This document shows, piece after piece, positions 28,004-49,836 of a DNA stretch of 64,000 bases (its first letter is position 1; the number at the start of each line of letters is the position of its first letter). The DNA lies in the NCBI GenBank assembly GCA_963971285.1, contig OZ020245.1, positions 16,692,983 through 16,756,982 of the forward strand. The letters run 5' to 3'. A program made the translations under genes and the position numbers. The notes below the pieces were generated by a model. The model saw only the letters and a program-made list of their open reading frames with translations. It ran no database searches and was not told the DNA's origin. Origin of the DNA: Astropecten irregularis (Eukaryota > Echinodermata > Asteroidea > Paxillosida > Astropectinidae).

Positions 28004-29335
28004 TCTACACGTCTGGTGTCACGAGCGCGGTATATGATTGTTAGGTTTATCTGCTGTAAAACAACTTCTATGTACGTGACTGATGCTCAAAAATGTCGGG
28101 CTCTTTTGATAAGAAACATTTCAGGCTCTTTTGTTTAAGAAACGTCAGGCTCTTTTGCTTGAAAGAAGCAAAATTCCCTGCGGAACACTTAGCCCAAATG
28201 GAATAAAATTACTTTATGTCCCTGGACAGAACTGCATTTAAATAGTAACATCGAAGCCATATAAATGATTCGATGCAATTCGATCACGGTATATGTATGC
28301 TTGTACCTGATGAATCTTACTTCATCTTGAATTTCAGTGTGGGTCATGTATTAATGATAATTGACATGTTTCTGTTATGGAACTAGCATATTCATGACAC
28401 AACGTCTAAAGTGGCATTAATGACATAAGAATAATACATGGTCAGTTGCAGTAGACCTTATTCACGGTGCGTCCATCCTACTTTTGAAGCAGTGCAATCA
28501 AACTGAGGCTTGGATTCAAAGTAGTCTGGTACCCGTTTTCTTTTTTTAGTATTTGTGCTATCTTTCAGTGAGTAATAATGGAAAGTCTGAATTGGTATTT
28601 TGTTTTGTAATGAAGTATTTTTTACCTTCCGTAAAAGAAAGAATTTTACTTTTCAAGAGGCGAGTAGGCCTACTCTTTCTACACTTTTAAGGCGTTGTGC
28701 AATTCTGTGGAGCTTAATAATTTAATTGCCACTACAAACATAGTAAATTAACTAATCGGCAGACCTGACCCCATGGAAGACAGCACTAAGACTGAGCAAA
28801 TTTTATACATTATTTTTAATAATGTCCGAAGAGGTTATCTTTTCACCCCACAACTGAGCCTCTTATCTCGATTATTGCTATTAATATCCCCAATGCAAAT
28901 AGAAACGCTACTTTTAGAACGTTCAAGGTTGCCTTAAAGGTCCAAAGTTCAAAGTAAACGAAAAACAAATTAGACTTTCAGATCAAACTTTCAGATACAT
29001 TGTCTCGGGATCTTCACTGTCAAAGGTCATGCCCTTCCTACCTCCAGTTATGATCAGTGATTAAACGAGGGTGGTTGGTCAGCAGTCTTCTTTTATCGTA
29101 AATGTCAATTTAATTTAACTTGTTAGCAGTGAGCCTGGGGTCTTCTCTTCACCTACTTCGTCTAAGGCATGCATTGTCTTTGAATGGACATTGTAATCGT
29201 TTTGTTTTTGTTGATTCAACGTGCATATCGAATCTTTAGACCAACGGTATAGCAGATCACAGGCTGCAGGAGTGTAACAGCACACTGGGGAACGACAGTG
29301 CAGGCAGTATTTTTCCACAGACAAAACTCTTGAAG
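28004..29335. other. Upstream region of sulfatase A
   Basis: 28855-29330 is homologous to 50897-51357 upstream of sulfatase B: CACCCCACAA, CTGAGCCTCTTATCTCGATT, CCAATGCAAATAGAAACGCT, TTAGCAGT and CCAACGGTA. ATGCAAAT in it is an octamer-like motif. This is the duplicated promoter region. The part before 28850 shows a short triple repeat CAGGCTCTTTT near 28120 and no gene. Confidence 0.7.
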
Positions 29336-32300: not shown

Positions 32301-35300
32301 TGGTCTTCCTCAGGTGGCTGAATATCAAGGCCTGGAAGGGCCTGATGCTGTTGATGGTTTTCTTCATGGCCCTGGATTTGTTCATGGTGATGTACGTGAA
32401 GGGTTTAAGCGTCAACTGCGTCCTCATGGAGAACAGGGAGGTGGTGGAGTACCCCCTCCGGTACGACCACCTGACGGAGAGGCTGCACAGCCGCGCCGTC
32501 CAGTTCATGGAACGCCACCAAGACCAACCCTTCTTCCTGGTCATGTCCTTTGTGCAGGCCCACACGGCACTCTTCAACAACGACCAGTTCAGGAATCACA
32601 GCCTCCACGGTCGCTACGGGGATAACTTGGAGGAGATGGACTGGAGCGTAGGAGAGGTGCTGGCGTCACTGAAGAAGCTGGACCTGGACGGAGACACCTT
32701 TGTGTATTTGACGTCAGATAATGGAGGTCACGTTGAGGAGTTTATGGAAAATGGCGAACGACATGGGGGCTGGAATGGAATCTATAAAGGTTGGTGGTTT
32801 ATTGATAATTAAACTAGGGTTCCCATGGCTTGAAGTTAAATCATTGTTCCTCTATCTAATGAATATGTAGCTAGGTGACAAAGATTTCATGTTTTGCTCC
32901 GTTGAAACTCGTTTATTATGGATTATTGGTACATACTTATAGGTGGTAAAGGCAACACCTGGGAAGGAGGTATCCGAGTTCCAACAGTCGTCAAGTACCC
33001 AGGCATCATCCCGCCAGGCACAGTGGTGTCACAGCCGACTCACCTACCTGACGTCCTACCCACAGTGGCTCGAGTCACCGGGGTCAAGCTACCCGATGAC
33101 AGGGTCTATGACGGCCGAGACCTGATACCACTGCTGACCAGCACCGGCAAGGAGGAGATCTTACACGAGTTCATGTTCCATTACTGCGGAGGATCCATCA
33201 ATGCTGTTAGATACACACCAAAAGACGGTAAGTGGTATTCGGTAAAGACGGCTAGCGGTATTTAACAACCTCCATGAGCAAACCGAGGCCCAATTCAAAC
33301 CATGATTCGGATGCTATATACCTACCATAATGCTTTGAACACAAGTCTAGAAAGATACGCCCTGTATAGTCTATCCGAGGCAGTGGTTTCTAATGTTCTA
33401 TCAACATTCACCTAGGTACAGATCCCTCACTTATTGAAAAGAATCTTCTTTTAAATGGCGAATTCTTGAGCCACATCATAGAAGAAGTTTCCGTGTGAGT
33501 AGTATATGTGGGGCGGTTGAACCCTTTTTAGTGTGGTTTGAGGAGGAGGAGGAGGAGGAGGGAATGTACTGCGCATGCGCAGCGCGCGATAGCGCGTGCG
33601 CGTACTCACGCACGCGCGCGCGTCGGACGCGCGTGGAAGCGCGTGCGCGTACTCACGCACGCGCGCGCGTCAGACGCGCGCTTCGGATTGCGAAAGACTA
33701 GGTCCAGACATGTCTGGACCTGACTGTACGGATGACGTAATGGTTTATAAAAAGAAACAAGTTTGATTGGTCGAACGGCAAAAAGTTGTTTTGATAGGTG
33801 ACCGCGCGCTATCGCGCGCTATCGCGCGCTCTCTTTTGATTGGCTGTTCATTGCGTAAACTACCACGGGTGTACAAAAGGACACGTTTTTGAATAGTGCG
33901 AGTCACTTTGCTCTTGGATTCGGAAGACGACACATCGTTGAGATAGTTTTGTATCCGTTCTGAATTACAACGAGGTGTGCCAACGATAAAACAATGGTCG
34001 GACACCCGAAGCTAACCAAGTTGAACATCAAACTGGCAAATGCCACGGCTACGTCACCGCCCGTGCCAGTGCCTGATGTTTCCCCTGATGTAGACGACGG
34101 GAGCCGTGCAGGAGAGCCTATTCCTATTTCATCTTCGCTGTTTGAAGCTGGTTGGAGACAGGCATTCAGCGAGACTCAAGGAAAGACCTACTACTACAAC
34201 ATGCATACTCAAGAGAGCAAGTGGGCATTGCCGGGTACACCCGACCGGTATGACGAGCCTCCTCCTCCTACCAAAGACGTGTTGGCTGCAGCAGCTGCTG
34301 CTGCCGTGGGACTAGCATCCTTGAGCAACGTGTCTGGCGGGAGTGGTGCTGGTCCGTCTGTCACCCCGATCCAGCCCCAGGCATCAACCACCAAGGCCTC
34401 CGGATCCGTTGCTGCTGGAAACAGCGGGAAGCCGACACGCGGCGTGAAACGCCGATTTCCTCCGGATCCAGACCAGGAAGAGAATGAAAACAGCGCCGTC
34501 AGATTCCAGATCGGAGGTGAGCGTTATGCCGTTGTAAAGCGTTTCAAGGGCCGTCCATACGTTAACATAAGAGAGTACTATTACAATCAGACTGGCACAA
34601 AACTTCTTGCTGGCAAGAAAGGGATCAATCTGAAAGCAGATCAGTGGAAGATGTTGATGTTGCAGCACGAAGACATTACCGCATTGGTGGACAACATGTA
34701 GGCCTGGGCCTACGCACAAGACAACTACACAATAAACTTACCTCAGTTCGTTTTCCTGTTTCTACTTGCTTCAGATGTCGACAGTGGCAGTAGCACCAAT
34801 ACGGCAACGTGGAGGGTGAAATCACTCATCACCAAGATCCTGGGAAAAGTCATCACCGATGAAATCATCAGACTGGCTTACAGAACACTTTCAGAAGCAC
34901 CGTGTGAAGGCTGTGAAGAGGACTGGCCTAGCCAGTTCGACCATGCTTGCATGGCCTATGGTGTATCCGTCGAGTCACACATCTACGACTACATAGACGA
35001 TTACTACGACGAGGCGGCAAAATCTGTGAAGGTGAACGTCGTCATGGACGTGTACAAAGCTGTGTCTGCTCGTCTGGGTACCAGATACAGATACGACGGT
35101 GGTGAAGAAGGCATGGCCACTCTCATCGATGCTATCCTGGACTCGTGGAGAACTGACTCAACTGAGATCCTTCAAATGTACCACACTGACTATGTTTCTC
35201 ACATGACTGAAGTCATTGGAAAGGTCATGTTTGCCATGGGCTTCAATTGAACTGATTGAACACTATACACTATACACTCTTCGTACACGTCGTATGAACT

Positions 35301-38300
35301 ATTATCACACGTCTAACTTGAATTGTCAACATGATGATTTTAGTTGGTTTTGATTGTTGATTGATTGAAAAAAAAAATGAAAAAAAAATGGTTGTTGTCA
35401 TTTATAATTATAATCTCGAATGAATTACTAATCGGGTTGAGACTTCTTTCTAAAAATGTTCGCGTTATGGTTATCATTACTTAGTATTCAGTAAGTTTTA
35501 TTGCAAGTGAGCAAGTTGCTTTGAAATAAATGTTTATGCGTTGTGGTTGTTGAAAACGAGAACAAGTTGTGATGGTCCATTTCATTGACTTTTTTTTTTT
35601 TTGTTAATAAAATTATTTCATTAATAATTTTGTCACGTATCGTACAAAGATATGACGCAGAGACAAGACACAGACACGAAGACGAACGAACGAACGAAAT
35701 GAAAGGAACAACTGACACAGCATGTGGATAACAGGCAAAATGAACTTTATTCATCAACGATAAAATTGAACAAGGTTTAACAATGAACAGGAACATTTAA
35801 ATTTGTAATAATAATGATTCTAATTACAATATAGTACACCTATTTTTTCAAATTTCAAAAGTATAACTGTTTCATTTTGTCTAATTTATAATAATTCAAC
35901 TTGTCAAATTCAACTTGTATTAGGAATAATTACACAGTTTGAGAGTGAACATCATGGTTCACTGCACTAAGTTCCAAGAGCCCTTGAAATCTGTCTGATT
36001 AGAAATTTCCCATCATACACTTGGGTTTTGAAACTGGGAAAATGCTTTCTCACAAACTCATTTACTATCATGTCATTCTCGCTGGTATCCGAAGAGAAGA
36101 GTCTTTCAATGTCACCCATGTCTAATCCTCGACAGCGATGCAGGAGGTAAAATATGCAATATTGGCCACAGACAGCTGACAAGGGGCCCTGCAAACGTCG
36201 GCGGTTGTAACGGTATGCTTTTGAGTTCTTCTTGAGAAACGTCTTGAATTCCGGTAGGAGTGGAGGTAGTCCGTAGGAATCAAAATACTCGGCTTTTCCA
36301 CATCTGTCCACGTAAATGGATATCCAGTGCTGGCCAGGTTTTGATTTGGGGTCGGTGTTGACTACAAAGCCACTAGGGAGAAGAACGCTTTGGTGAAGGA
36401 GTTGGTCTCGGGCAAATACACCCCGAAAATGGTGCATCGTGTAGCGGTCCCCCTTCAATATGGAGTCAATCTGAAAGTTGTCCATACGCACGTTGGGATG
36501 CTACCTTAACTGGTGTAGTCGAAAATAACGTTGCGAGCCTGATCAATCTCCAGAATATTGTCAAACTCTGCATAGACGATCACGTTGACTGTCTCTGGCA
36601 GTGGAGAGGCAAAGTGCATTTCCAAGCGTAGATTGCCGTGCTTAACCAGATTGAAATGTCCACCTGATGAAATGTCGGGAGTTAGATCAAAGCCGTACAG
36701 TGCGTAGCCATCGGGAAAGTCTTTGCGAGTGATACCATTGCCCTCATCCTTGTACATTTTATCTGTTCCCGAGAAAAGAGTGTGGTAGGCTCTGACGAAA
36801 TTTTCGGACTCTGGTGCAAAATTCGGTTTCAGAGGTGCGTAGGGAATCTGTTCGCCATCCAGGTAGACGCTCAGGAAGTTCAGGTTGAAGTTTTGGAAAT
36901 TGAATGGGTTTCTTCCGTATTGTCCGTTGAATGCCTGGTTACTCACGCATCCGATCACCATGCGTGTTGGGAGTTGCCCGAGAAAAACGTGGTCTTGCGA
37001 AAGAGTCATGTTACCTTGAGGGACAGACATCACCTTGCACAGAGTACGCTTGAGGGGGTACTTTGCCGAGCCTTTCTCCAAAGCCTTGGCGTGTCCGAGC
37101 ATGACCGCGGAACTCACTTTCACCCTTCTGACGAAGACGGACGCCTCTTGAATCATGACCTTATAAGCAGGGTTGGCACCAGTTGCCATCAGGCAGAAGG
37201 CATCGCTGCTGCGGATAAGTTTCAGTTTAAGATCCACTCCGTTCAGCATGAGCCTGTCTTGGAAGAAAATATCACTGTGAATAGGACCAATCATGTCGAC
37301 AACCCGACTGACCCTGGTAAAATTGGACCGCATCTTCAATCCTCTATTGATCGGAAGGGCGTTCCCATCATCATCCTCCTCGTCGGTGCTAGCATTGTCC
37401 ATTTGTCTTGCGGTATCTTTGTAGAACATAGAAGAGGTCAACTGGGAGGTCTTAGCGTCCCCACCATAACTTAACAGGGTCTCCATGATGGCTCGGTAGG
37501 GGTAGGTCGGTGAAGATGAGGTAATGAGTCTCTCATTCATGGTCACGTCAATCTGACTAAAGAGAGACTGTAGGAACAGATTGACAGGTCCCACGGGAGC
37601 ATCCTGGGCCAAGTCAGTCCCGTTGCCGTTGACCACTTTAGCCTTGATATACAGTTGAGTTTGGGACAGATCGCTGTATTCCTCGCCCGATCCAGGGATG
37701 AAGAATTCAATGGGGCCGCCATCAAAGATATTGGCAATGGGATGAAATTCCACCCACTGTCCCTTTTCTATACTGGTTTGGGTAGGTGGTAGGACAAACA
37801 GATCCAACTCGGACTTGGTGCACTCACACGAACGATCGTGCAGCAGCGACATGATCGTCCACGCAGAGGTCCACAGAAAACTAATCAAAGATATCAAGCG
37901 ACCTTTTCCCGCGCTTGCTCTGATTGGAAGTGACGCGTCTCCCCCTAGCTTTCCTTTTTATACCCTTGCGTGGGCCTTGTCTGATGTTGGCAGTCATACT
38001 TTCAATGGCTCGCTGGGTGATGCGACGTCCTGCGCGTTTCAGTCTGGTTCTGGCAGCCGTTTTGATGTCCTTTCCTTGCAGGGCATCGTTGGCAATATTG
38101 ACCCCAGTGCGAAGAGCCTCCTTGCCTAATGACTTCGCTCCCGATTTGATGAGCGGCAAGGCTGATCGAAGGAGTCCACCCAGAATACCTCCGAGTCCAA
38201 AGCCCCGCTGGTTGCGGGGCCCTTCAAACACGGGAAGTCCTTGTCCGACTTGCCGCACGTAATAATCTTCATAATGTTTACAGCGGGGCACGAAAGTATT

Positions 38301-41300
38301 TCTCATGCTGGGAAATCAGTTGAAATGGGCCGAACGCTGCTGCCTGAAGTGAAGTTTAACAATCACTTTCCCGGAGATGAATGGAATGGACTGGCCCGTG
38401 TCGTCCCTTATATCTATTTCGATTGTGTCCACAAGCTTCTGTTTCAGAGGGACGTAATGTGGGTTCACGTAGGTTTTGGTGACGGTTTCCCCATAGTGAC
38501 CTTCCACGTTGACGGTGCGCAATAGAGGCGCTCTTTTATCACCCACGATGCTGTATTCGATAATGTTGGAGTACACAAACAGGGAATGAAACGGTTGCAT
38601 ATCTACCACTCTACGGCTTTTTTCTGTGCCGGTGAGGGTGGTGTTATCATCAAAGCCAAGTAGATTTGCTAAACGTCCCCTCACTTTCACGACCACTCCC
38701 GAGCACGTTTTTACAATTACTTTCTGTATGTGCTCATCATAGTTTAAAGACACAAGTCCGTTGTGGTCGAGGGGTGGTTTCAAACTCTCGATGAGTCCAC
38801 CCGGAGTGGGGTAGAAACCCTCGTGCACTCGGTGCGGATGTATGACGCCTTGTCCCCCAGCCGAACAGAAGATAACGTTGTCTCCATCAAAGACGTTCAA
38901 CCAGCGGTGTGGGTATGTACATTCGACCAGGGCTACTTCCCACGCCCCTTGAAATGTTAGAGGAGACGGCAGATTGGAGTAAAAATGAGTCAATGTATTG
39001 TGCGGGTGGGTTGCCATGGAGCCATTGCTCGGGAGAGTGACAAAAAATGACGACGTGGCCATGATGAAGCGAATGGTTCAAAATGGTCACGGATGGGTCT
39101 CCTGACAGTTTTTATAGACTTTGCAGATGTGAGACCCAGCTATTGAATTTAGAGGGATAGCCCAGCCACTTGACAAGATGCTCCATTTTCCCTTTCCTTT
39201 TTCGAGTCTGCAGCACTTCTTCCACGGTATACAAATCATTCTTTTTCTTGACGATGCGCTGCAATTCAGGCTCGTAAAAGGTTCCCTCCAGCTCCTCCCC
39301 ATCGTAGTCTTTCAAACGGTACACGGGAGGATGGCGTTGGAGCTTAGCACTGATGGTAAATTGTTCAGTCGTCCAGTTTGGGAGGTAACCCTTGCGAAAT
39401 GGTCGTGTCGCCATGCTGATGCGTACTGTGTCCCCGACTCTAAACTTGAAAGCGGCACGATCCGTATGCTCGTAACTAGGGCCGTACAGGTTTTCTCTAA
39501 CCTTGTCTGCATTCGCAGAATTGACCGAGGCAGGCGACGTCTTGATACTCCTGTGAAAAGCGTTGTTGTAAGCCGAAAGCAATTGGGGCAGGACCTTCAT
39601 GTAGTCGTACGTATTGTTGGCTGTAAAATACTTCCACATTTTTGTCTTTAACGTTCTGTTAAATCTCTCCACGACACTAGCCTTTGTCTCGTTGTGTGTC
39701 GTAAAAAAGTAAATGTTCTTTCTCTTGAGGTAAGACTGGAACAACGCGTTCATGAACTCCTTGCCCTTGTCTGTCTGGAGAAGACGCGGTTTTCTTCCTT
39801 GCTTTACAATTTCATCGAAAGCGTCAACCAACGTTTTGGCCTTCTTATTCTTGAGAGGTACGGCCCAGGCGTACTTGGAAAAGATATCGATGCACGTCAG
39901 CAGATATCGATAGCCCCTGTTGTACTTGACGAGGGAAGGGAGATCGACAAGGTCTGCCTGCCACTGGTGGTCAATGCCGTGAACCACAACTCTGTTTCGT
40001 TTGAAATGTTTACGGACAGGTTTGTGAAGGGTGTAGGTGGGTTGCTCGCTCAACCACGTTTCGATCTGTTTCTTGGTGAGACCGGTCCCGTCTCCCTTTG
40101 CTGCACGGTAAACAGCATCCACACCACCGAAGGAAGCTGGATGCTGAGGGTCGTAATATATCCTCTTGAGGTACGCCTCCGCCATCGGCAGAATCTGCGT
40201 TTTCAATAATAAGGGTACCTCGACAACACACCATCAAGCATCGTATCCTTTGGAGTAAGCAATGAGGTTCACGGTTGGACTGCGGTGGGCAACAACAATC
40301 CATGACGCACGTCAACCATCAAATGAAGGAGGGAAGGCTACGTGTGTACTTAATATGAGGTCCACTTTTGGGTGGATGTTTTCCTTTTGTTTTTCTTCTT
40401 CTTCTTCTTGTTCTTGTTCTTCGTCGTCGTGTTCTTTGCTTCTTCGGTAGGCATCGGTGGAAGGTGGGAGGCCTCGGCAAACAGTTTTGAGGATGAAGCT
40501 TGCGATGGAAGATAGACAGCGCTTGGCTTGGTGTCAACTTCGGGCTCCAGGTAAGGTGGGTCCGGATGAATCATGGGAGAAAGTTTAGGCATTTGGGATT
40601 TTTCTTCTGCCTCATTGATGTTTTTAAACGTCATGGTCAGGGGCGCATTTCTTTTCCTGTTCAACGTCATGTATCTGTAAAGGATCTGATGATACTGTTT
40701 GATTTTCTCCTCGTCCGTGAGGTCTTGCCTTTCTAGTAGTTGCCTCATATCGGCATCTAAACCGTGCACAATGCGAGTAACTGGAGATTGTTCAAGCTGC
40801 TTTGCCGCTTGTAGTTGCGCTAGGGTCTCGTGGGGGATCATAACCATCTTCTTGGCGTTGTGCATGCTATACTAGTGTTGATGATCACTTCAAAAGAAGA
40901 CCAGCGACTGTACTCAATATAGGGGTAAGCAGTGCACCAAGGAACCCACCTTTTTGACCGAGAATTTTCTTCTTCTTGTGAAAGCTCATTTTTCGAATGC
41001 TCAGGGCTCTTAGATGTCTCTTGTATTTGCTCAATCTGCGTTTATCGATCGGTTTCAGGCTAACGTTCCCATTAAGAACATTGAGGGCGCATTCGCACAG
41101 ACATGCAATGAGTTCTTTACTCGCGCCTTCGATCACACCCTGGCGCTGCTTTGCTGTTCCCTTCGCCAAGACGCGGAGGTAAGGAGCATGGTTGACCATG
41201 CGCTTCGACATCTTCAAATGAGTGGTCTGGCCTGGAACTGCTCATATTTATACCCTCGGGACGTAGACGATGGTGTTTTGTTCTGGGAAAATGCTAGATC

Positions 41301-44300
41301 TCAATCTTAAGTCTTCTGGCGTGTCTGGCTTTAGATCGATGAAAAGGTAACCGTAAGGTTCGGAGGTGGCATCACGGTAGGCTTCCATCATGTATTTCGG
41401 GCGACTGGGATACATTTGTCTGCTTAAGTGAGTGATCTGAGAGCCATCTCTTGGATTTTTAAAGAGTACCATGTAGTGAGCGTTCAGACTGATGGTTCTC
41501 ATTTCTTTTCCTTTGTAAAACAGATTCTGAAGAATCAGTATGACGGACAGATTTCTGTGATGACTGCCTTTCGTAAATAGTTCTGTGACCCGTTTGTTGT
41601 TGCCCGTTTCTGTCATGAGATCGTCAATTACGATGAGACTTCTCTTGGATCTATCTAACTTTGTATGAAAGTCTTCAGGAAGACCTTCCAAAAATTGTAA
41701 ATGAGGCACCACACTTGCCAAATGAGTATATGCATCTTGATACTCTCCGTAACACCACACTATAGTATCGGGTGGAGGATGGATGACGTTCTCGTCTGCA
41801 GGCACCAGCAAACGTTTCACAAATTGTGTTTTGCCACACCCCGTTGGACCCGCTACCACACAAGTAAAAGGATGTTTAATTGGTACTGACATGACGTTAA
41901 GTGAGTAACACAATGGATGCAAGGTTCATTTATAGACGATACGAATACAGAGAGAATTAAGCTTCAGCAAAGCAAATGTTGTTTACCAAACGAAATTAAA
42001 CACAACATTTATTCATTTCTGTCCATCATCTCTCTGCAGCAATCACATTCAATATAAATGCACCGTACTCATAATAAGAAAACAGAGTTGTCATTGTTTA
42101 ACAAAGCACAGGTGTGATGGCAATTCATTTTTTCTCAATTAATTATTCTCAATTAAAATGAACTAGTCAATACTTTCAAATGATTAAAAACCGGAATTAT
42201 ATTGATCAAAGTCACAATGTCATGCTTTAAACAGAGCTGTTCTTCAAATGGAAAGATAAAAAATAACCATTATTATTTGAAATGGTGACCCATCAAACGC
42301 CTTAGGAGCACTACGAATTACACAGAAATGGATACAAGAATGCACAACATGAAGAGGAAATTTCACGGTGGGATGGATCAAAGTACCATAATAACCAGTA
42401 TATACAAGAAACCAGTGACCCAAAGGGACATAATAGAGGAGAAATGTGTCACTTGAAACACACCTCCGCTAGATAAATCAATCAATAAAAAATAATAATC
42501 AATGAGTAATTTAATTAACAAACAAATAAATAATTTAATCAATAAAATAATAGATCAATCAATCAATCATTCAATCAATGACATCACGTTGAAATGATCA
42601 ACTGCATTTTTTACCACAACTTTGTGATGCATTATGATTTTGTTTTAATCTGATGTTTTCTCACCCTTGCTTAAATGGATCGGTTCAGCCTGCCTCAATC
42701 TAAATGTCTAGAAAGGTCGTTGACACTCCATCAGGCGCAACCTTGCGCTTGGGGTAGAAGTAGCTGAATGCTGTTTTTTCCTGGGCATATGTGTACATGT
42801 GCTGATTGCACATGCGAAAGCCTCGGTTAACACCTCCTGCTGCTTGTTGGGTTTCGAGAACTCCCAGGTACTTTTGTTTGTTGATGTCATTGGTGGCTTT
42901 GTTCAACCCTTTACAGCTGAATTTATTGCTCCCTCCGAAGCAATAGTAGGTTTTACTGGACAGGGCGATAATTCCGTCACCCTCCCATTCGACCTTGAAC
43001 AACCCCGGTGTTCTCTTATCGTAGTTGCGATGCTCGTCGGTATCTTCACGTGGAAACCAAGCTCTTCTTTCCTGTAAGTAGGACTCTTTCAAATGTGGTT
43101 TAATCACCTCTTCTAACGTGTCGGCGGACAGTGCCAAATAAGTTGAATCGGTGTCCATCTGACACAACTGGAAATCCGAAGTGTCGATGAACTTCAGTAG
43201 GAAGTCGTAATAGAATTCCAGCATTCTCATCTTGGCATATTGGTACACGAAGAATCCAATGTGAATGGGAAGGTTCAACGATATGGATTTCTTCGACAGT
43301 TCCACCTCATACATGTCGTCACCGAGTGCATGCAAGGCACGAAAGTGATGATCGTTCACGCAGCGAGCGGCCCCAAAGTCGTCACACACACGGATGTTGG
43401 TATGTCGCTCTTGGTTCGTGACGGTCTTGCCGTAAGCCGAGTTCCCAAGCAGTTTCATGGTATCTGCTATGATTCCTTTGGATGGGTCGCTGTCGCCTGC
43501 TCGTCTGGCATCGCTCACTTCATTGCCGAACTGTTGGAAGCACTCGCTGGGTGTGTACTGGATGATCTCGTACACATGTTGGACCTGGATCCCGTGCGCC
43601 ACATACCATCGTAACAGGGGAGTGGCCAGAAGAATATCCTTCCCAAACATACTGCCAATAAGGCTGCGTCTAGGAGTCTTCATGATTCCTTCCAGCTCAG
43701 CGAAGTCTCTCATGTGGTGGCCGATGTCATGCCTCTTGATGTCTACATTCTTGAATATCGGAGTCATCTCAGCAAAGTATTCTTGTCGCTGGGGAGGTAC
43801 CTGGACGTCACACCTGACTAGGCCAAACATACTCCCATCATTGATGTACTCCAACACTTGGCGCTGTGTCATCGTTTTCTCCTTAAAGTGGGGTACTCTG
43901 GAGGACGCCAGAAAGGCCCGCAGTGCGGCATCTTCTTGTTGTACCTGCTTCCATTGACATTCCCACATTTCGACAAGTCGACAACCCTGCTGGCGAATGT
44001 AAGACGAGATGTGTTCGGTGTTGGCCCTCAACTCTTCACAGCTTACATTTCGGACTGGATTGTGTTCGTGAGCATTGAGATGGCACTGGTGGCCGTGCCA
44101 GAAGCAGCCATGGAACTGAAAGACGGTGTTGTTCTCCGAACAGTATCCGTCCACGGGAATCTTGCGCGGTCCGATGCGCTTCTCCGTGTTGTTGTACTGA
44201 TGGCGGATGTGGACACTGCGCTTCCTCGACTCCCACTCTAACCATTCGGTAGCCATCATGCCGTGCGGACGACCTGGCTCAGGTTTGAACCCTGTTTCGG

Positions 44301-47300
44301 CTTTGCGTCTGACGAAGTTACCCGTGGGCATCTCCTGCATCAGGGACCACAGGTAAAGGGCATTGGCGTCGAACCCGACGACCTTTCGGCAACTCTTAGT
44401 TCCTCCCCGGATGTGTGTCTTTCCCTTTTCGTGATACCGGTGAAACACAATGGAGGGGCCACCAGCGATGTTTTTCTTCAGGGTGTAGTAGAGGTCATCG
44501 TTCTTCTTGTCGAAAAGAGAGAGATGAATGTGAGGAGGAAGCGTCATCATCAGGTACTTGAGTGATAGCCCGGGGACGGAAATGGCCGACTTGAACATAT
44601 CGAGGCCCCGCTCTCGATAGAACGTGAACATCTTTTCAATGGCATCCAGGAAGGGAACAACGTCTAGGATGTTATACCATTGTAAGAAATCCGACATTGT
44701 CTGCATTTCTTCCCGCTCCCATACCCTCTGGCAGTACTGGTACTCCGAAGCCGTGATGTTTGTTCCCTTGAGCTTACTGTGAAAGGCATCGTGAGGTGGG
44801 AGGTTTCCGTCTTCGAGCTTGGCCAGGTCGTCCATCCACTCATATGGGAAGAACCCCTTTTCTTGCTGGCAATCGTACGCCTTCAGGAACTTGGCGTAGC
44901 TGCATCCAGGGGCGAGATAATTGGTGATGTCCAGAAATTTAAGTCGTGACGTCTTGACAGCCATGTAACTTCCGGTCCTCTTGATGACGAATTGGACGGG
45001 ATCCGTCTGCTCTAACTCGGCGTACAAATACCTCTTGATAACATTCATGTCGTATCTGGCCGAATTGAACCCGATGACCGGCAGCTCTAATAGCACTTTC
45101 TCCAGCTCCTCTTTGAGACGTTCTGCAGTGCATTTTCCTTTTTTCTTGGGTTGCCCGTCTTCGGCGGCAGCGTTGTCATCGTCCAGATGATCATCAGTAT
45201 CATCGGGTTTCTGCGCCTCGATCATCTCATCTAGCTTTGCAAAGACTTCTTCGAATTTTTCTATCATGCACACGTAGGCAGCCTCGCTTATTCGAAGAAG
45301 ATGGCCGACCATTTCTCTCACCAAAGTTTGGGGATTTCCATCCGTCACGAAGCATTTGGGGCTATCAAAGTCAGGGACATTCGACGCCACGCCGACACTC
45401 AGTAGTTCATGTCTGCGTTCCCACTGCAGCTTTCCTACCCTTCGCTGGCCTTCCTGACCCACGGGTTGGAAAAAACACTCAAAATCAAAGGTGGCGCGAA
45501 AGGGGTAGTAACGCAGCTCATCTTCTACCTCTATTCCCTCCTCTGCCAGCTTGTCGAACACGGAAGAAGGTGGGCGGTAGGTGCCGCCGGGAAATCGATG
45601 CTTCACGTTGACTTCACATGAGTGTTCATGCCGCTGAAGACTGTAGGGTCTGGGGAAGGCGGTGTTACACTTGCAACAGACGTAGCAGCGACTGTATCTA
45701 TTCAAGTCAGACACGTAGGAAAAGTGATTCCCGTGCAAGTTCAAGTAGAGGGTGTCATCTGTTAATTTCCGGTGGCTGCGTCTGACCAGCTCGGCTTGGA
45801 TTCTTGGCTGCTGTTCTTCATCATCATCGGCATCATCACCATCCACCGTCGCTCGCACGAGGGAGTACACCTGGATGCTAACATCGAAAATCTTTTCCAG
45901 GTAAGGAAGATCATCCAGGGTCACACCACCACCGAACTGTCGTTTCCCTGTCTTCTGCCGATAGATGTCGAGAAGGGCTTGGGTGGGTCTTTCCAGGGCG
46001 TGAAGATTTGCTCCGCGGTGCAGTGCGAGGCTTCTGAAAAAGCACAAATCGTCATCGTAGCGCCGGCCTGTCTGTTCACTTTTGACTAGACTGACCAAAC
46101 CTCCGTTGTTCCTCACGTAGGCAGGAAGCTGACATTCAGGTGCCCGTCCAATGGGAAAGTTGGGCATCTTGTTGGCGTAGACCGTCATGTTGGTCAGGCT
46201 GGCAACGCTCCACTTGGTGTCGGGACGATGGTTGATTGCGTACAGCAACACATCAGCCTCGCTAACTCTCTTCACCAGGCGCTCCAAGTCTGCTTGCGAA
46301 GCGACGATCATTGGCGACGGGAACACCCGGGCATTGTTGTGGCTAGAGTGGAAATAGCGCAATACTCCTGTTTCTACGTGCCGCAGGATGAATCCAAAGG
46401 AAATATTAATCTTAGTGCGGCGCCGCAAGCGAGGAAATATGGCCCGGATGCCACTCTCTACGTTGACGCTGGATGCACCTATCAACCTCAGATTGTAGAT
46501 GTCTTGAACAGGGCGGCCCGTTGTGTTGTGTGTGCGAACACAACCCCAATTGTCTCGAAGAATGACTTGTACATCTTCCGCTTCGTCGCTCACCGATTCC
46601 GGGGTGAAGTCTGCTCCGTCTTCGGCCAGTGGATCGATCACCGGGGATTCATGCGGTTCATCCAGCAGCCTAGGAGGAGATACTGGCCTGGGTTGGGCAT
46701 GGCCAGCACCTGCTGGTTTGCGAAATCGGCAGTACTCTTTGCTATGCCGGTGCAGGGCATCTTGTCGGCTGAATTTTCTGCCACATGCTAAGCACTTCAG
46801 CTGTACCTGTTTCTTGGGGGAAAGAGGTTTCGGGGTTGGGGTTTTCTTGGATTTATCTTTATTCGTTTTCTTGTTTGGGGAGGACTTTTTATTGACACTC
46901 GATTTTATATTTGAGCTACTTTTCTTTATGGAACCATTACACACTTTTCTGTGCCGCTTCAGGTTATCCATGCGTTGGAAGCTTTTACCGCAGGTGACGC
47001 AAACCTCCCCGGATTTGGCGTGGCTCCTCTCATGACGCTTCAAGTTGTCCTTGCGGTTAAAGGTCTTGTTGCATGCCTTACAGGTGAAATTGCCGGTTGG
47101 TTGATCCTGAAAGAAGAAGAAGAAGAAGAAAAAAGATTATTATAGTGACGTAAAACAAATTACTACTTGTCACATGCTTAACAGACATACACCGTCCTCC
47201 GCCCACGTTAACATAACACTCACCGTAAGAGGTTCTTCCTCGGGCACACCAGCTCCTCGCATGTACGATCCATCTCGCTGGGGTGCAGGGGGATTTGCTG

Positions 47301-49836
47301 GAATGATGGAGTCGCGCGAACGGTCGTCTGCCGATACCTCCATCACTCCAGGGCTTTCCATAATGACCTCCTGCGAGTTCTATTTTGCATAAGAAAGGGG
47401 GGGGGGGAGAAGAAAAAAAAAGAAGTAAATAATAGATGTCTATGTGCAAAAGGAAATAAACCATCGAAATGTATATTTACTTCGAATACGTTTCACTCAC
47501 CAGAATGGGCATGTTCTCCTTTACACCAGCTCCACGAATGTATGGAACACCTCGCTGAGGTGCAGGGGGAGTTGGTGGGATGATGGAGTCCTGGGAAAGG
47601 GCATCTGCATACACATCCATCACCCCGGGAGTTTCCATGATGACGTCATGTGAGTTCTATGTATGTTGGAAACAATATACATGTATGTTTAGTTGGAGAA
47701 GGTAGACCTATTAAAAAAGACTACACATTATTATTATTATTTCATTATTTGTCTTTACTTGTATGGAATACGTTTCACTCACCACACTGGGCATGTTCTC
47801 CTTTACACCAGCTCCACGAATGTACGGAACACCTCGCTGAGGTGCAGGGGGAGTTGGTGGGATGATGGAGTCCTGGGAAAGGGCATCCGCAGAGTTCTCC
47901 ACCACTCCGGGTGTTTCTGAGATAACACTCGGGTCCTGCGTGCCGAAAATAAATATGATGGAATTTATGTAATTATACATCGTATTTTGTATACATCATG
48001 TTCCGTTTAATGCAAAATCAAGTCGTTGAAAGATTACGCAACCAAACGTGTTAAACTCACCATGTCATCGTTCTCCATCTCACGCAGACAACGTTGAAAT
48101 GTCAAACTTGCTGGAGGAAGGGGCATGGGTCGCCCACCATCACCCTAGGGATAAATAATAACAATAATATTGTTTTTTTTTGTTTTTTTTTAATAAAAGA
48201 GCGTTTGCTCTATTTATTCATTCAACAAACAAAAACAGACTCAATTATTTAAAAATAGGCCTAATACGAATAACATAAAATAATTCAGGCGATTTAAACA
48301 GTAATACATATTCATGTTATGGAGATGAAGAAAGCGTTACGTCAATGTGAGCTCCCTCATCCAGATTTAAGGCCTGCCTGCTTTTGTTTCAATCATAGGA
48401 AAAATTTCTACAACGCCACCTTCATCGTTATTATTAAGTGAAAATGAACCATCCCCAAATCATTATTAATTTATTAAATATAGGTCTAGGCCTACTCACC
48501 AAAGTCGGTAAGGTCATCTACTCATCTTATTTTATTATTATTTCTTATAAGCTCATTATTCCTCAGGCTAAGTGTTATTTTATGAAAAGCATTATCGTTT
48601 GCACCTACCTCACCAAACAGTTCGTCGACTATGCGGTCAATCTCTAACTGCTGAGAAAAGGTTGGATCTGGACTTAGAAATGGGTAGTGTGCCCATTCTT
48701 CCTCCAAACGATCCATCTCCTCTAATTGAGAGGATGTGGGATCGGGACTTAAAAATACCCATTCACCGCCAAGCTCCATCGTAAACTCTCGTTATTTGAC
48801 TTCTTTCCAGTACAACGATCCAAAGAGCAATGCGATTCAATTCCCAACAAAGATCATGTATATGACAATGCCCGTGCGCGTGCGCGTCCGCGCCCGCGCA
48901 ACACGCGTACGCGCGCGTCCCCAAAAAGATCATGTACGTGACAATGCCCGTGCGCGTCCAAGCTCGCGCAACACGCGTACGCGCGCGTCCGACAAGCGTT
49001 ACCACGCTAGCGCGCGTCAGACGCGCAACACGCGTACCCACGCGGCCGACGCACACTGCGCGCCCACGCCCGCGCACCACGCGCACACTGCGCGCCCGCG
49101 CGTGCGTGAGTACGCGCACGCGCTATCATGCGCGTCCGATGCGCGCGCGTGCGTGAGTACGCGCACGCGCTATCGCGCGCTGCGCATGCGCAGTTCATTC
49201 CCTCCTCCTCCTCCTCCTCCTCAAACCACACTAAAAAGGGTTCAACCGCCCCACATATACTACTCGTGTGAAAAAAAGATGGCCTCATCTAAGGTAACTT
49301 GGTAGTTTCAATGTGGTATAAAAATTATGTGCAAGACACAAGTGAACTTTTAGATCATAATGTGTCATTCGAGCCTATTTCTCAAAATGGGCGGGAAAAC
49401 TTATAAAAATGTGTATCCCTTGATTAATGTGGTTGTGTGTCTTTTAGGTGGAAGTACGTACAAGGTGCACTACGCTTCCAGCCGTCTGGTACCTGGAATA
49501 CACGGCATCATGGGGTGCTTTGATGTTTCCACGTGTGAGTGCAGAGGAGAGAGTACGGACATCCACAACCCACCCTTGGTCTATGACATCACCAGAGACC
49601 CATCGGAGGCCAGCCCGATGGACAACAGCGACCCCAGGGTCAAGGAAATCGTCAGAGAGGTGGACGAGGCGGTGGCCAGACATAGACTGACCATCCAGCC
49701 CGATCGGGAGCAGATTAATTTTTTGCAAATGTTGCCCAGACCATGGAACCAGCCACGATGCGGTAGCTTCCCTTTCTATACATGCACAGATCCGTATCTG
49801 AATCAAATAAAAACCAACCAAGTATTGAAAAATTAA
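29336..49836 (+). CDS. Steryl-sulfatase-like arylsulfatase, copy A (five exons, Polinton in last intron)
   Basis: Exons: 29336-29669, 30856-30978, 32103-32789, 32943-33227, 49448-49836; about 605 aa, all introns phase 1. I start at the ATG at 29336 because copy B has the same start context. Residues 23-42 form a signal peptide. The metal-binding motif [10 protein letters not shown] is near residue 53, the formylglycine-precursor motif CSPSR at 95-99, GKWHLG spans exons 2-3, and TSDNG is in exon 3. Exon 3 also encodes two hydrophobic segments between the catalytic halves, the membrane hairpin typical of steryl sulfatases. The last intron is 16.2 kb because a complete Polinton sits in it on the opposite strand. 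The donors of exons 2 (GTTCGT) and 3 (GTTGGT) are weaker than in copy B. The coding frame is intact; whether the gene is still spliced efficiently is open. Confidence 0.85.
30079..30278. mobile_element. Two tandem MITEs with ends ACACGGGTTTACACTTC (intron 1 of sulfatase A)
   Basis: Copy 1 is 30079-30173 and copy 2 is 30191-30278. Each has ACACGGGTTTACACTTC-like left and GAAGTGTAAACCCGTGT-like right ends around CAAAACGAGGCA and CGCATGCGC. A third copy is at 58098-58194. Confidence 0.85.
31328..31985 (+). mobile_element. 5'-truncated Penelope-like element (GIY-YIG end plus tail)
   Basis: The open frame through 31543 encodes a C-terminal piece with PVGFHFNLPNH, then ISDM, IESL, REKVWIKKLRT and a final GLNLQE, the usual end of Penelope-type or GIY-YIG retroelement proteins. 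C-rich DNA follows, then a tail with GATCCTGCTAGGATCGAAAC and GCGTCAGGCCCTCC (31876-31911) that resembles the hammerhead-like terminal segment of such elements. The tail recurs at 57479-57551 and 59095-59180. It lies in intron 2 of sulfatase A. Confidence 0.68.
33492..33497 (+). repeat. Target-site duplication CGTGTG (left)
   Basis: Perfect 6-bp match to 49265-49270, directly outside the Polinton TIRs. It defines the insertion point in the sulfatase intron. Confidence 0.92.
33498..33667 (+). repeat. Polinton left terminal inverted repeat
   Basis: Matches the reverse complement of 49095-49264 with only a few mismatches (for example AATGTACTG versus AATGAACTG). The outer 60 bases are unique sequence, followed by a GAG triplet run, then GC-rich alternating CG/CA subrepeats with the unit GCGTGCGCGTACTCACGC present twice. 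Similarity fades after about 170 bp. Confidence 0.93.
33733..33753 (+). promoter_or_regulatory. Putative promoter of the WW-domain unit (CRE-like site plus TATA)
   Basis: TGACGTAA at 33733-33740 resembles a CREB/ATF site, and a TATAAAA stretch follows within ten bases (around 33746). Both lie just inside the left TIR and about 240 bp upstream of the ATG at 33994. Spacing fits a core promoter driving the only + strand unit of the element. This is a motif-level inference. Confidence 0.4.
33994..34701 (+). CDS. Polinton WW-domain + PC4-like protein (unspliced form)
   Basis: 235 aa from the ATG at 33994. Residues 52-80 form a WW domain: W54, a GKTYYYN core, W77 and P80. An Ala-rich and a Ser/Gly/Pro-rich linker follows, with the basic stretch KPTRGVKRRF as a possible nuclear signal. 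Residues 171-235 match the PC4/SUB1 (p15) single-strand DNA-binding coactivator fold: RFQIG, VKRFKGRPYVNIREYY, GKKGINL and a final QW helix. Known PC4 proteins bind melted promoter or ssDNA; WW domains bind Pro-rich peptides. The fusion suggests a link between element DNA and the host transcription machinery. The PC4 part lies wholly in a predicted intron (34517-34774), so this product requires intron retention or the intronic AATAAA at 34731. Confidence 0.82.
   Translation: MVGHPKLTKLNIKLANATATSPPVPVPDVSPDVDDGSRAGEPIPISSSLFEAGWRQAFSETQGKTYYYNMHTQESKWALPGTPDRYDEPPPPTKDVLAAAAAAAVGLASLSNVSGGSGAGPSVTPIQPQASTTKASGSVAAGNSGKPTRGVKRRFPPDPDQEENENSAVRFQIGGERYAVVKRFKGRPYVNIREYYYNQTGTKLLAGKKGINLKADQWKMLMLQHEDITALVDNM
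33994..35250 (+). CDS. Polinton WW-domain protein, predicted spliced form with CxxC domain
   Basis: Exons 33994-34516 and 34775-35250 give 333 codons including the stop. The donor GGAG/GTGAGC is at 34517 and the acceptor, after a pyrimidine-rich tract, ends TTGCTTCAG at 34774. The join is phase 1 and keeps the frame. The second exon has an open frame of over 150 codons but no ATG at its start, which supports splicing rather than an independent gene. It encodes a C-x2-C-x9-H-x-C cluster (CEGC...DHAC) that could bind zinc, then helical, acidic sequence ending in MGFN. The shared N-terminus keeps the WW domain; the PC4 domain is removed. AATAAA at 35606-35611 can serve this transcript. The function of the CxxC part is unknown. 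Confidence 0.6.
34731..34736 (+). terminator. Intronic poly(A) signal AATAAA
   Basis: Lies 30 bp after the PC4-form stop and inside the predicted intron, so cleavage here would produce the WW-PC4 form and block splicing. Confidence 0.45.
35251..35966. other. Convergent intergenic spacer in the Polinton
   Basis: AT-rich 716 bp between the + strand WW unit and the - strand protease. It has AATAAA on + at 35606-35611 and AATAAA on - at 35746-35751, so both transcripts can end here. I see no gene in it. Confidence 0.6.
35967..36485 (-). CDS. PRO: Polinton maturation protease, adenain-like cysteine protease (PRO)
   Basis: 172 aa from the ATG at 36485 (two codons inside a longer frame that opens with GTG). 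The Cys protease triad of the adenovirus protease family (C5) is visible: H53 in GQHWISI, D69 in EYFDSYG, C106 in SAVCGQYC, with a Gln in CGQ. In adenoviruses and adintoviruses this enzyme trims capsid and core proteins during assembly. It lies 20 bp downstream of the major capsid gene on the same strand, in the compact virion-gene block. Length is close to the family norm of about 170-200 aa. Confidence 0.9.
   Translation of the reverse strand: MDNFQIDSILKGDRYTMHHFRGVFARDQLLHQSVLLPSGFVVNTDPKSKPGQHWISIYVDRCGKAEYFDSYGLPPLLPEFKTFLKKNSKAYRYNRRRLQGPLSAVCGQYCIFYLLHRCRGLDMGDIERLFSSDTSENDMIVNEFVRKHFPSFKTQVYDGKFLIRQISRALGT
36506..37852 (-). CDS. MCP: Polinton major capsid protein (double jelly roll)
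   Basis: 448 aa from the ATG at 37852; the frame stays open 15 codons further upstream, but the start MSLLHDRSCECTKSELDLF is the usual N-terminus in this family. Conserved stretches: PPTQTSIEKG near the N-terminus, FDGGPIEFFIPGSG, a Tyr-rich TYPYRA motif, and FDLTPD near the C-terminus. The family forms trimeric capsomers with two vertical beta-sandwich domains. Neighbours are the protease downstream and a basic small protein upstream, with 28 bp between genes. No breaks are seen. Confidence 0.88.
   Translation of the reverse strand: MSLLHDRSCECTKSELDLFVLPPTQTSIEKGQWVEFHPIANIFDGGPIEFFIPGSGEEYSDLSQTQLYIKAKVVNGNGTDLAQDAPVGPVNLFLQSLFSQIDVTMNERLITSSSPTYPYRAIMETLLSYGGDAKTSQLTSSMFYKDTARQMDNASTDEEDDDGNALPINRGLKMRSNFTRVSRVVDMIGPIHSDIFFQDRLMLNGVDLKLKLIRSSDAFCLMATGANPAYKVMIQEASVFVRRVKVSSAVMLGHAKALEKGSAKYPLKRTLCKVMSVPQGNMTLSQDHVFLGQLPTRMVIGCVSNQAFNGQYGRNPFNFQNFNLNFLSVYLDGEQIPYAPLKPNFAPESENFVRAYHTLFSGTDKMYKDEGNGITRKDFPDGYALYGFDLTPDISSGGHFNLVKHGNLRLEMHFASPLPETVNVIVYAEFDNILEIDQARNVIFDYTS
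37881..38306 (-). CDS. Small basic virion protein with Gly-rich hydrophobic segment
   Basis: 141 aa. The centre has GFGLGGILGGLLRSALPLIKSGAKSLG, followed by an amphipathic helix-like stretch; the C-terminal 60 residues are very basic (RTRLKRAGRR, KGIKRKARGRR). This layout resembles the adenovirus core/pX-type and pVI-type proteins: a DNA-condensing tail plus a membrane-active segment. It lies between the two capsid genes, 9 bp from the minor capsid stop. Function is inferred from layout, not from a catalytic motif. Confidence 0.68.
   Translation of the reverse strand: MRNTFVPRCKHYEDYYVRQVGQGLPVFEGPRNQRGFGLGGILGGLLRSALPLIKSGAKSLGKEALRTGVNIANDALQGKDIKTAARTRLKRAGRRITQRAIESMTANIRQGPRKGIKRKARGRRVTSNQSKRGKRSLDIFD
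38316..39062 (-). CDS. mCP: Polinton minor capsid (penton-like, single jelly roll) protein
   Basis: 248 aa from the ATG at 39062. Typical opening with a Ser-rich FFVTLPSNGS, an N-terminal beta-rich part with WEVALVECTYPH, then LLGF and VYSNIIEYSIVGDKRAPLLR, which are hallmarks of Polinton penton-like proteins. Predicted role: pentameric vertex of the capsid. It sits between the integrase and the small basic protein in the same strand block. Confidence 0.86.
   Translation of the reverse strand: MATSSFFVTLPSNGSMATHPHNTLTHFYSNLPSPLTFQGAWEVALVECTYPHRWLNVFDGDNVIFCSAGGQGVIHPHRVHEGFYPTPGGLIESLKPPLDHNGLVSLNYDEHIQKVIVKTCSGVVVKVRGRLANLLGFDDNTTLTGTEKSRRVVDMQPFHSLFVYSNIIEYSIVGDKRAPLLRTVNVEGHYGETVTKTYVNPHYVPLKQKLVDTIEIDIRDDTGQSIPFISGKVIVKLHFRQQRSAHFN
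39112..40185 (-). CDS. INT: Polinton integrase (DDE, retroviral type) with C-terminal chromodomain
   Basis: 357 aa from the ATG at 40185 (the open frame continues seven codons upstream from a TTG, then a stop). The rve core shows D78 in QWQADL, D139 in QTDKGKEF and E173 in SVVERFNR (D-x33-E), plus WLSEQPTYTLHKPVR upstream. The last 45 residues (YTVEEVL...HLVKWLGYPSKFNSW) are a chromodomain, which may guide insertion to histone-marked chromatin. The enzyme inserts the linear element DNA and makes 6-bp duplications, consistent with the CGTGTG pair here. Confidence 0.92.
   Translation of the reverse strand: MAEAYLKRIYYDPQHPASFGGVDAVYRAAKGDGTGLTKKQIETWLSEQPTYTLHKPVRKHFKRNRVVVHGIDHQWQADLVDLPSLVKYNRGYRYLLTCIDIFSKYAWAVPLKNKKAKTLVDAFDEIVKQGRKPRLLQTDKGKEFMNALFQSYLKRKNIYFFTTHNETKASVVERFNRTLKTKMWKYFTANNTYDYMKVLPQLLSAYNNAFHRSIKTSPASVNSANADKVRENLYGPSYEHTDRAAFKFRVGDTVRISMATRPFRKGYLPNWTTEQFTISAKLQRHPPVYRLKDYDGEELEGTFYEPELQRIVKKKNDLYTVEEVLQTRKRKGKMEHLVKWLGYPSKFNSWVSHLQSL
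40350..40865 (-). CDS. Polinton Lys-rich protein of unknown function
   Basis: 171 aa from the ATG at 40865. The N-terminal half has a start like MVMIPHETLAQLQ, then LDADMRQLLERQDLTDEEKIKQ and an RYM stretch that recur in animal Polintons; the middle is Pro-rich; the C-terminal end is a run of Lys and Asn. I know no function. Position between ATPase-side genes and the integrase and the basic tail suggest a virion or DNA-associated protein. Confidence 0.7.
   Translation of the reverse strand: MHNAKKMVMIPHETLAQLQAAKQLEQSPVTRIVHGLDADMRQLLERQDLTDEEKIKQYHQILYRYMTLNRKRNAPLTMTFKNINEAEEKSQMPKLSPMIHPDPPYLEPEVDTKPSAVYLPSQASSSKLFAEASHLPPMPTEEAKNTTTKNKNKKKKKKNKRKTSTQKWTSY
40885..41211 (-). CDS. Small basic Polinton protein with hydrophobic C-terminus
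   Basis: 108 aa from the ATG at 41211. The middle is basic (KRRLSKYKRHLRALS), then KKKKILGQKGGFLGALLTPIL leads into a hydrophobic end VAGLLLK. The LGQKGGFL-like motif with hydrophobic tail is common in small Polinton-encoded proteins and may be membrane-active. It sits 19 bp from the Lys-rich gene and 36 bp from the ATPase, which suggests co-transcription. Confidence 0.7.
   Translation of the reverse strand: MSKRMVNHAPYLRVLAKGTAKQRQGVIEGASKELIACLCECALNVLNGNVSLKPIDKRRLSKYKRHLRALSIRKMSFHKKKKILGQKGGFLGALLTPILSTVAGLLLK
41248..41892 (-). CDS. ATP: Polinton genome-packaging ATPase (A32/FtsK-HerA type)
   Basis: 214 aa from the ATG at 41892 (an upstream in-frame TTG extends the frame ten codons). 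Walker A is GPTGCGKT at residues 15-22; Walker B is LIVIDD with the acidic pair near 90-91; a QN sensor-like site follows in LILQNLF. In related viruses the ATPase pumps DNA into preformed capsids. It is the most upstream gene of the structural block. Confidence 0.92.
   Translation of the reverse strand: MSVPIKHPFTCVVAGPTGCGKTQFVKRLLVPADENVIHPPPDTIVWCYGEYQDAYTHLASVVPHLQFLEGLPEDFHTKLDRSKRSLIVIDDLMTETGNNKRVTELFTKGSHHRNLSVILILQNLFYKGKEMRTISLNAHYMVLFKNPRDGSQITHLSRQMYPSRPKYMMEAYRDATSEPYGYLFIDLKPDTPEDLRLRSSIFPEQNTIVYVPRV
41893..42699. other. AT-rich spacer between ATPase and polymerase genes
   Basis: About 800 bp, rich in AATAA and AATCAATC repeats. AATAAA on the - strand at 42008-42013 could end the polymerase transcript. 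The promoter for the ATPase block is presumably here. No ORF of note. Confidence 0.5.
42700..48779 (-). CDS. POLB: Polinton protein-primed DNA polymerase B, six exons
   Basis: Main exon 42700-47106 plus five 5' exons on the - strand: 48609-48779 (ATG at 48779), 48061-48144, 47783-47935, 47501-47656, 47224-47379. All are phase 0 with GTGAGT or GTAGGT donors and AG acceptors, giving about 1708 aa. The first 240 residues are acidic and Pro-rich; exons 3-5 encode three copies of a 51-52 residue unit. Then come three zinc fingers (about 249-269, 276-296, 345-366), an OTU-like Cys protease region (DDDLCFFRSLA, C near 595, HGNHFSY His near 701), another Zn cluster, an exonuclease domain (FDFECFF), and polymerase motifs DANALYLW (A), LLGNSAYG (B), MDTDST (C). 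It copies the linear element from protein-primed ends. Confidence 0.88.
47224..47935 (-). repeat. Tandemly triplicated exon in the polymerase 5' region
   Basis: Three exons (47783-47935, 47501-47656, 47224-47379) of 51, 52 and 52 codons encode the same unit: a PGV block, a stretch like ADALSQDSIIP, then PPAPQR and YIRGAGV. The two upstream copies are almost identical at DNA level, including the first intron bases GTGAGTGAAACG; the copy next to the polymerase exon is more diverged. Confidence 0.85.
49095..49264 (-). repeat. Polinton right terminal inverted repeat
   Basis: Inverted partner of 33498-33667. Inward of it, 48860-49095 continues as an expanded GC-rich tandem region of ACGCGTACGCGCGCGTCC-like units that has no counterpart of the same length at the left end. 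Confidence 0.93.
49265..49270 (+). repeat. Target-site duplication CGTGTG (right)
   Basis: Direct copy of 33492-33497. The sulfatase intron resumes here and runs to the acceptor before 49448. Confidence 0.92.

Follow-up and report, generated by a model that had tools for sequence, protein, structure and literature searches.

How can an open frame of 158 codons (the codon split by a predicted splice junction included) be expressed if it has no start codon and follows the stop codon of another coding region on the same strand? The question is raised by a locus of the sea star Astropecten irregularis, contained in a stretch of 64,000 nucleotides, the whole of which is called the window here. The locus lies within a Polinton, a kind of element commonly placed near the origin of adenoviruses and further DNA viruses of eukaryotes. 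From the sequence it appears highly probable that a single Polinton gene would give rise to two products, depending on whether an intron is retained or removed. The element and its recognizable genes are as follows.

33498-49264: Polinton that carries the gene studied
33498..33669, + strand: left terminal inverted repeat, preceded by the 6-bp target duplication CGTGTG at 33492-33497
49093..49264, - strand: right terminal inverted repeat, followed by CGTGTG at 49265-49270
35967..36500, - strand: adenovirus-type protease (PF00770, E 1.3e-4)
39112..40233, - strand: retrovirus-like integrase (rve) with chromodomain (PF00665, PF00385)
41248..41925, - strand: packaging ATPase (PF02456, E 9.9e-7; PF04665, E 1.7e-5)
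42700..47136, - strand: type B DNA polymerase (PolB; PF03175, E 1.4e-9), with probable 5' exons upstream

The assignment is based on long inverted repeats (arms of 173 nt, 97% complementary) with the same 6-bp duplication at both ends, and on Pfam matches of the PolB, the rve integrase, the adenovirus-type protease and the packaging ATPase; in all of these the element resembles known Polintons/Mavericks and adintoviruses. The frames 36506-37957 and 38316-39077 had no Pfam match and occupy the positions where double-jelly-roll capsid genes are expected, which makes them candidate capsid genes by position. Sulfatase exons adjoin the element (PF00884 for 31997-32812), and direct repeats at 28834-29610 and 50896-51632, about 22 kb apart and 87-98% alike in pieces, flank it, possibly as a duplicated host segment. 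The main PolB frame also lacks an ATG and begins directly after a strong acceptor, TTCTTTCAG/GATCAACC; an apparent series of 5' exons was read from splice signals at 47207-48060 on the - strand, among which a 161-nt unit is present three times with a GTGAGTG donor in each copy, and alternative N-termini of the polymerase are a possible outcome.

The gene studied has the following predicted parts.

33994..34516, + strand: exon 1, common to both predicted products (ATG at 33994, WW domain, first PC4 residues)
34147-34230, + strand: WW domain (PF00397, E 2.1e-8)
34504..34701, + strand: PC4 domain (34504-34659) with tail and stop TAG (34699-34701), translated only with the intron retained
34517..34774, + strand: intron of 258 nt, phase 1, removable or retained, with donor GTGAGC and acceptor CAG (34772-34774)
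34731-34736, + strand: AATAAA in the intron, 30 nt past the PC4 stop
34775..35250, + strand: exon 2, an ATG-less frame for a predicted helical protein with a C-x2-C-x9-H-x-C cluster
35606..35611, + strand: AATAAA past exon 2, with a second one at 35525-35530; candidate poly(A) signal of both messages

Both domains of the unspliced product scored above the family cut-offs, the WW domain with 34.5 bits against 26.9 and the PC4 domain (PF02229, E 1.5e-15) with 56.8 bits against 25. The donor reads GGAG/GTGAGC, with the first intron base at 34517, and the acceptor TTGCTTCAG/ ends at 34774, with a candidate branch site CTTAC at 34737-34741. In a simple splice-site matrix, the donor ranks 4th of the 4016 GTs and the acceptor 15th of the 3440 AGs on the + strand of the window; the next-best donor between 33900 and 35260 scores 4.0 versus 6.9 and sits upstream of the ATG. 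The original prediction had described a unit that opens with the WW domain and contains a strong donor, a strong acceptor, the PC4 stop and the AATAAA at these positions, and all of this was confirmed, as was the ATG-less frame with the Cys/His cluster, for which about 150 codons had been estimated. Its view that the intron holds almost exactly the PC4 domain is right for nearly all of the domain, but the donor lies about four codons into it, and exon 1 retains the residues FQIG. The open frame that runs from 34702 to 35250 contains no methionine before the end of the CEGC motif, and the first methionine of exon 2 lies 16 residues beyond the first cysteine of that motif.

A comparative set was obtained by searching the A. 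irregularis genome (475.7 Mb) with the downstream frame, which yielded 22 matches representing 20 loci, the window included; all DNA evidence is thus from one genome. The loci were grouped, by similarity rather than by a tree, into seven lineages: A (the window, L009, L010, L011), B (L012-L015, L020, L021), C (L016, L023), D (L017), E (L018, L019), F (L022) and G (L024-L027). In 19 of the 20 loci, all except L022, a WW-PC4 frame is found upstream in the same orientation, and it is therefore present in six lineages. Codon usage, pN/pS, acceptor shuffles and promoters were analysed with one representative of each of these six; lineage E was represented by L019 because L018 has an in-frame stop. 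Both frames are intact from start to stop in 14 loci, with predicted products of 196-235 aa (unspliced) and 293-334 aa (spliced); the decayed or partial copies L011, L018, L020, L021, L022 and L023 were excluded from these whole models and kept in the counts of donors and acceptors. Four WW-PC4 copies without a whole CxxC part (L028, L029, L030, L034) stand outside the 20 loci, and one of them, L028, has kept the donor and lost the acceptor, as a dead copy may.

The position of the WW-PC4/CxxC cassette within the element varies: it faces the protease in the window and in one G copy, neighbours the ATPase, in the same orientation, in one B locus, and precedes PolB in one C and one D copy. Judged from one locus per lineage, the cassette moves as a unit and stays together despite its changing position. 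Several unusual arrangements were seen in addition. At C23:7296500-7304900 (L018/L019/L035) two lineage E cassettes face each other at a distance of about 7.4 kb, and represent either two elements or one gene within very long inverted repeats. A decayed tandem array with five PC4 pieces is found at C11:22223000-22232900 (L042), where CxxC pieces with stops were found at two places in one search and at four in another. In L031 (C1:8352500-8357000), near position 1717, a distant PC4 frame that lacks the donor in IGGER has a near-perfect donor, TGAG/GTGAGTG, three codons ahead of its stop, which points to a further splicing arrangement. No processed retro-copies, with WW joined straight to CxxC and PC4 missing, were seen in the genome match tables.

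The donor is the best conserved element of the predicted intron. The string GGxGGTGAGCG, within the IGGER motif of PC4, is present in 18 of the 20 loci, and is absent only from L020, where it has decayed, and from L022, which has no WW-PC4; the conserved GT that the original prediction had named as a check in relatives was therefore found, in six lineages. Among the six representatives there are 41 columns with a single amino acid (Met and Trp excluded), and only five of them keep one codon, namely three Asp columns and two neighbouring donor codons, GGT and GAG. The GGT is the sole invariant codon among the 22 columns with a four- or sixfold choice, at a pS between lineages of 0.59-0.95, which is near saturation.

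The stop codon might also be bypassed in translation, read-through of the TAG at 34699 producing a WW-PC4-CxxC fusion. In the window and in L009 and L010, a single stop does separate PC4 from a downstream frame in register with it; many other copies, however, differ in frame, with more stops intervening, and in L011 a loss of 4 nt shifts the frame, whereas a good acceptor is kept. The intron lengths of copies without insertion (240-274 nt; L021, with an insertion and an intron of 1002 nt, was left out of this range) cover all three classes modulo 3, and even within lineage B introns of 258, 259 and 260 nt occur. Read-through as a general explanation is thus excluded for the gene family by the variable intron length, and we give it almost no credence. 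For the same reason the multiple of three in the window, which the original prediction had treated as part of the design, must be regarded as incidental.

Alternatively, the locus could hold a WW-PC4 gene and, apart from it, a CxxC gene that has a promoter and a start of its own. A distant lineage, H (L032, L033, L045), is organized in a way that agrees with this, with the CxxC exon more than 1 kb downstream of the PC4 frame. In L032 and L033 the PC4 frame lacks a donor at the corresponding position (TTAAAGGGGAACAGG), and an acceptor, ATTCGCAG/ACGACG, precedes the CxxC exon; L032 has, between the two, another frame with an ATG that ends at a strong phase-1 donor, TCCG/GTAAGTA. The CxxC part of lineage H thus probably has a first exon of its own, and a first exon common to PC4 and CxxC would be a feature of lineages A-G. 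A further array of the lineage H exon is located at C11:19.23-19.25 Mb. For lineages A-G, in contrast, a separate CxxC gene was rejected: exon 2 has no conserved methionine before CEGC (its first 110 codons contain none in L012-L015 and L022), 34517 is the only strong upstream donor in the window, and the donor GGT is fixed in six lineages. We therefore consider two separate genes to be very unlikely, and a CxxC frame that has its own ATG and lacks the splice site, which would have spoken against the original prediction, is absent among the loci read; the CxxC exon of lineage H still has an acceptor. Among metagenomic relatives there were two CxxC matches, one of which (P0003) begins with MFFCFLR near the boundary, resembling a translated pyrimidine tract followed by AG.

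The reading of one gene with a removable intron also requires an acceptor, and here the lineages differ. An in-phase acceptor opens exon 2 in all 20 loci (in L016 and L022 one of several in-phase AGs was chosen by the analyst), and CEGC, which 19 copies have kept, follows it at a distance of 40-42 codons in each of these. YTNAY branch sites precede all 20 acceptors, a motif so short that it is often expected by chance. The simple matrix gives the acceptors of lineages A, E, F and G scores of 6.2, 4.8, 6.5 and 2.6, and those of B, C and D scores of 0.2, -0.1 and 0.7, respectively. As a control, the stretch from the PC4 stop to the acceptor was shuffled 2000 times with dinucleotides kept in the six representatives. 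An in-phase, open AG of any strength arose in 42-77% of the shuffles; one at least as strong as that observed arose in 1.3% (A), 1.4% (E) and 1.3% (G), but in 38% (B), 31% (C) and 26% (D). The acceptor therefore clearly beats the shuffles in lineages A, E and G and does not in B, C and D, for which the argument from the acceptor is weaker, and this is a point in favour of separate genes. Likewise, the conserved AG that the original prediction had named as a check is found as far as presence and phase are concerned, but the AGs of B, C and D do not exceed in strength those that shuffling frequently yields.

The intronic PC4 part is constrained as protein at least as much as either exon: the median pN/pS over 15 lineage pairs each is 0.54 for exon 1, 0.40 for intronic PC4 and 0.54 for exon 2, values that are rough, pS being saturated and the PC4 part comprising 61 codons only. 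In a large (metagenomic) protein set, 21 WW-PC4 relatives were found, 18 of them with both Pfam domains, and one relative is annotated in the brittle star Amphiura filiformis. CEGC is present in none of the 21, and the full-length spliced protein was not found in this set at E <= 0.01 among 82 candidates; no relatives were reported from viral contigs, prokaryote genome contigs or phages. The constraint on PC4 within the intron indicates that both products are probably made, and together with the widespread proteins that end with PC4 it makes a function of the unspliced product very probable.

The unspliced product could be made in two ways. The original prediction had favoured intronic polyadenylation, in which cleavage after the AATAAA at 34731 would compete with splicing and create the WW-PC4 message. 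This signal, 30 nt past the PC4 stop, is followed by a T/GT-rich stretch, and an AATAAA is present between the PC4 stop and exon 2 in all four lineage A copies. However, no A[AT]TAAA was found in this interval in the scanned copies of C, D, E and G, and none was seen in the inspected stretches of lineage B, while an AATAAA also follows exon 2. A poly(A) switch is therefore improbable as the mechanism of the family, and we prefer retention of the intron, both messages ending at one poly(A) site past exon 2 (35525 or 35606), because the intronic signal was found only in lineage A.

The predicted exon 2 product has invariant C44, C47, H57 and C59 over nine relatives, one of lineage H included, and an AlphaFold model built from three sequences is all helical with a mean pLDDT of 79. 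Comparison with Pfam, PHROGs and the PDB sequences gave nothing significant, and Foldseek against the PDB gave a best E of 1.6, with no match at E <= 0.001. In the libraries searched, no described zinc-finger or viral family thus matches it; it appears to represent a new family, whose Cys/His cluster probably binds zinc. Lacking a start codon, this helical family tends to escape ordinary gene calling. Among solved structures, the WW domain is most closely related to the WW domains of Prp40-type splicing factors and of PCIF1, and on this ground a contact with the machinery of transcription or of splicing may be guessed.

Upstream of the ATG, three putative promoter elements stand in a row between 33695 and 33752.

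33695..33725, + strand: p53-family-type site, AGACTAGGTC-A-AGACATGTCT, with 1 mismatch
33733..33740, + strand: CRE/ATF-type site, TGACGTAA
33746..33752, + strand: TATA-box-like TATAAAA

Within the first of these, an overlapping pair, AGACATGTCT-GGACCTGACT, matches with 2 mismatches, and these are the only sites with at most 2 mismatches and a spacer of 0-1 in the 64 kb of the window, for the decamer consensus RRRCWWGYYY and with the limitation that the motif was chosen after the sequence had been seen, when a p53-like palindrome was noticed upstream of the gene. Decamers of the p53 type lie at most 350 nt from the ATG in five of the six lineages, compared with a mean of 0.38 lineages in 2000 shuffles, none of which reached five; tandem decamers with 1-2 mismatches in all occur in lineages A, B, C, D and G, and lineage E has none. 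The CRE/ATF-type motif TGACGT[AC]A is present in five of the six lineage promoters, with a maximum of three over 500 shuffles. Motif matching thus points to p53-type promoter sites in five of six lineages.

The proposed course of events would be as follows. Transcription would begin at the promoter that adjoins the left inverted repeat on its inner side. With the intron retained, exon 1 would be read into PC4 up to the stop, giving a WW-PC4 protein of 235 aa, a probable transcription coactivator that would bind single-stranded DNA and contact the transcription or splicing machinery with its WW domain. When the intron is removed, the first 174 codons would be joined in phase 1 to exon 2, giving a WW-CxxC protein of 332 aa with the probable zinc site. 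The combination of a fixed, strong donor with an acceptor that is weak in several lineages suggests that the balance between the two is regulated, plausibly over the replication cycle of the element. Taken together, the comparative evidence supports the core of the original prediction, i.e. a single first exon, PC4 in a retainable intron and splicing to an ATG-less CxxC exon.

The closest parallel is found in adenoviruses. L4-33K is translated from a spliced message and L4-22K from the matching unspliced one, the two having their N-terminal 105 residues in common, and 22K, an activator of the major late promoter, contains conserved cysteines and histidines, a potential zinc finger (PMC4346872). 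The Polinton gene resembles this pair, at the level of sequence, in the common N-terminus, the unspliced and spliced products, the intron that interrupts the coding frame and the Cys/His region at one C-terminus. The Cys/His region, however, would be in the spliced form of the Polinton gene, whose unspliced form has PC4, and in the unspliced 22K of adenovirus. In addition, the p53-type sites recall the activation of the adenovirus L4 promoter by p53, as described in PMC4473568. Homology to the adenovirus family is not indicated by Pfam matches, as the 22K/33K model was absent up to E 10 from both frames and from nine exon-2 proteins. The adenovirus pair is not known to contain WW or PC4 domains.

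Exitrons, introns that are also protein-coding and of which about half are multiples of three according to PMC4484396, provide a second parallel, as the Polinton intron also codes for protein. The Polinton intron, unlike exitrons, does not lie wholly in coding sequence: it holds a stop (34699) and some untranslated sequence, and its retention swaps the C-terminus rather than inserting an internal segment. The PC4 part itself resembles cellular PC4/SUB1 and aligns to human PC4. The presumed host SUB1 exon (L043, C21:12961343-12961456) differs in reading LSRQRF versus IGGERY in the element, and has no GGTGAG. It lies between introns, and its phase-0 3' splice site is located about 7 nt (about two codons) upstream of the place homologous to the donor. 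A derivation of the Polinton donor from a host PC4 intron was rejected, since the host border is a 3' site, in phase 0 and about 7 nt off; the viral 5' splice site may nevertheless mark a former exon border of the host.

Among the titles and abstract openings listed in searches of openly licensed literature, none links Polintons with PC4 or describes alternative splicing in Polintons; the openly licensed literature searched likewise yielded nothing on Polinton gene control, and a term search of PMC11071296, which came up in the search for Polinton and p53, found neither a PC4 nor a WW domain. Provisionally, the two-product gene would thus be new for Polintons and known in kind from adenoviruses.

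One and the same stretch of DNA has been preserved in six divergent lineages as protein and as intron alike, and the conserved retained-intron switch together with the p53-type promoter sites would provide a concrete handle on the Polinton cycle. More tentatively, and as a combination that we consider possible rather than likely, this gene could act as the master regulator in one group of animal Polintons and be wired like adenovirus L4, with a p53/ATF-responsive promoter and an intron that combines an invariant donor with an acceptor of adjustable strength. The promoter would then sense DNA damage or stress of the host, and the intron would time the change between a transcription activator of the PC4 type and a zinc-helical effector. 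If this were true, adenoviruses and Polintons would have in common a p53-driven retained-intron switch, either by descent or by convergence.
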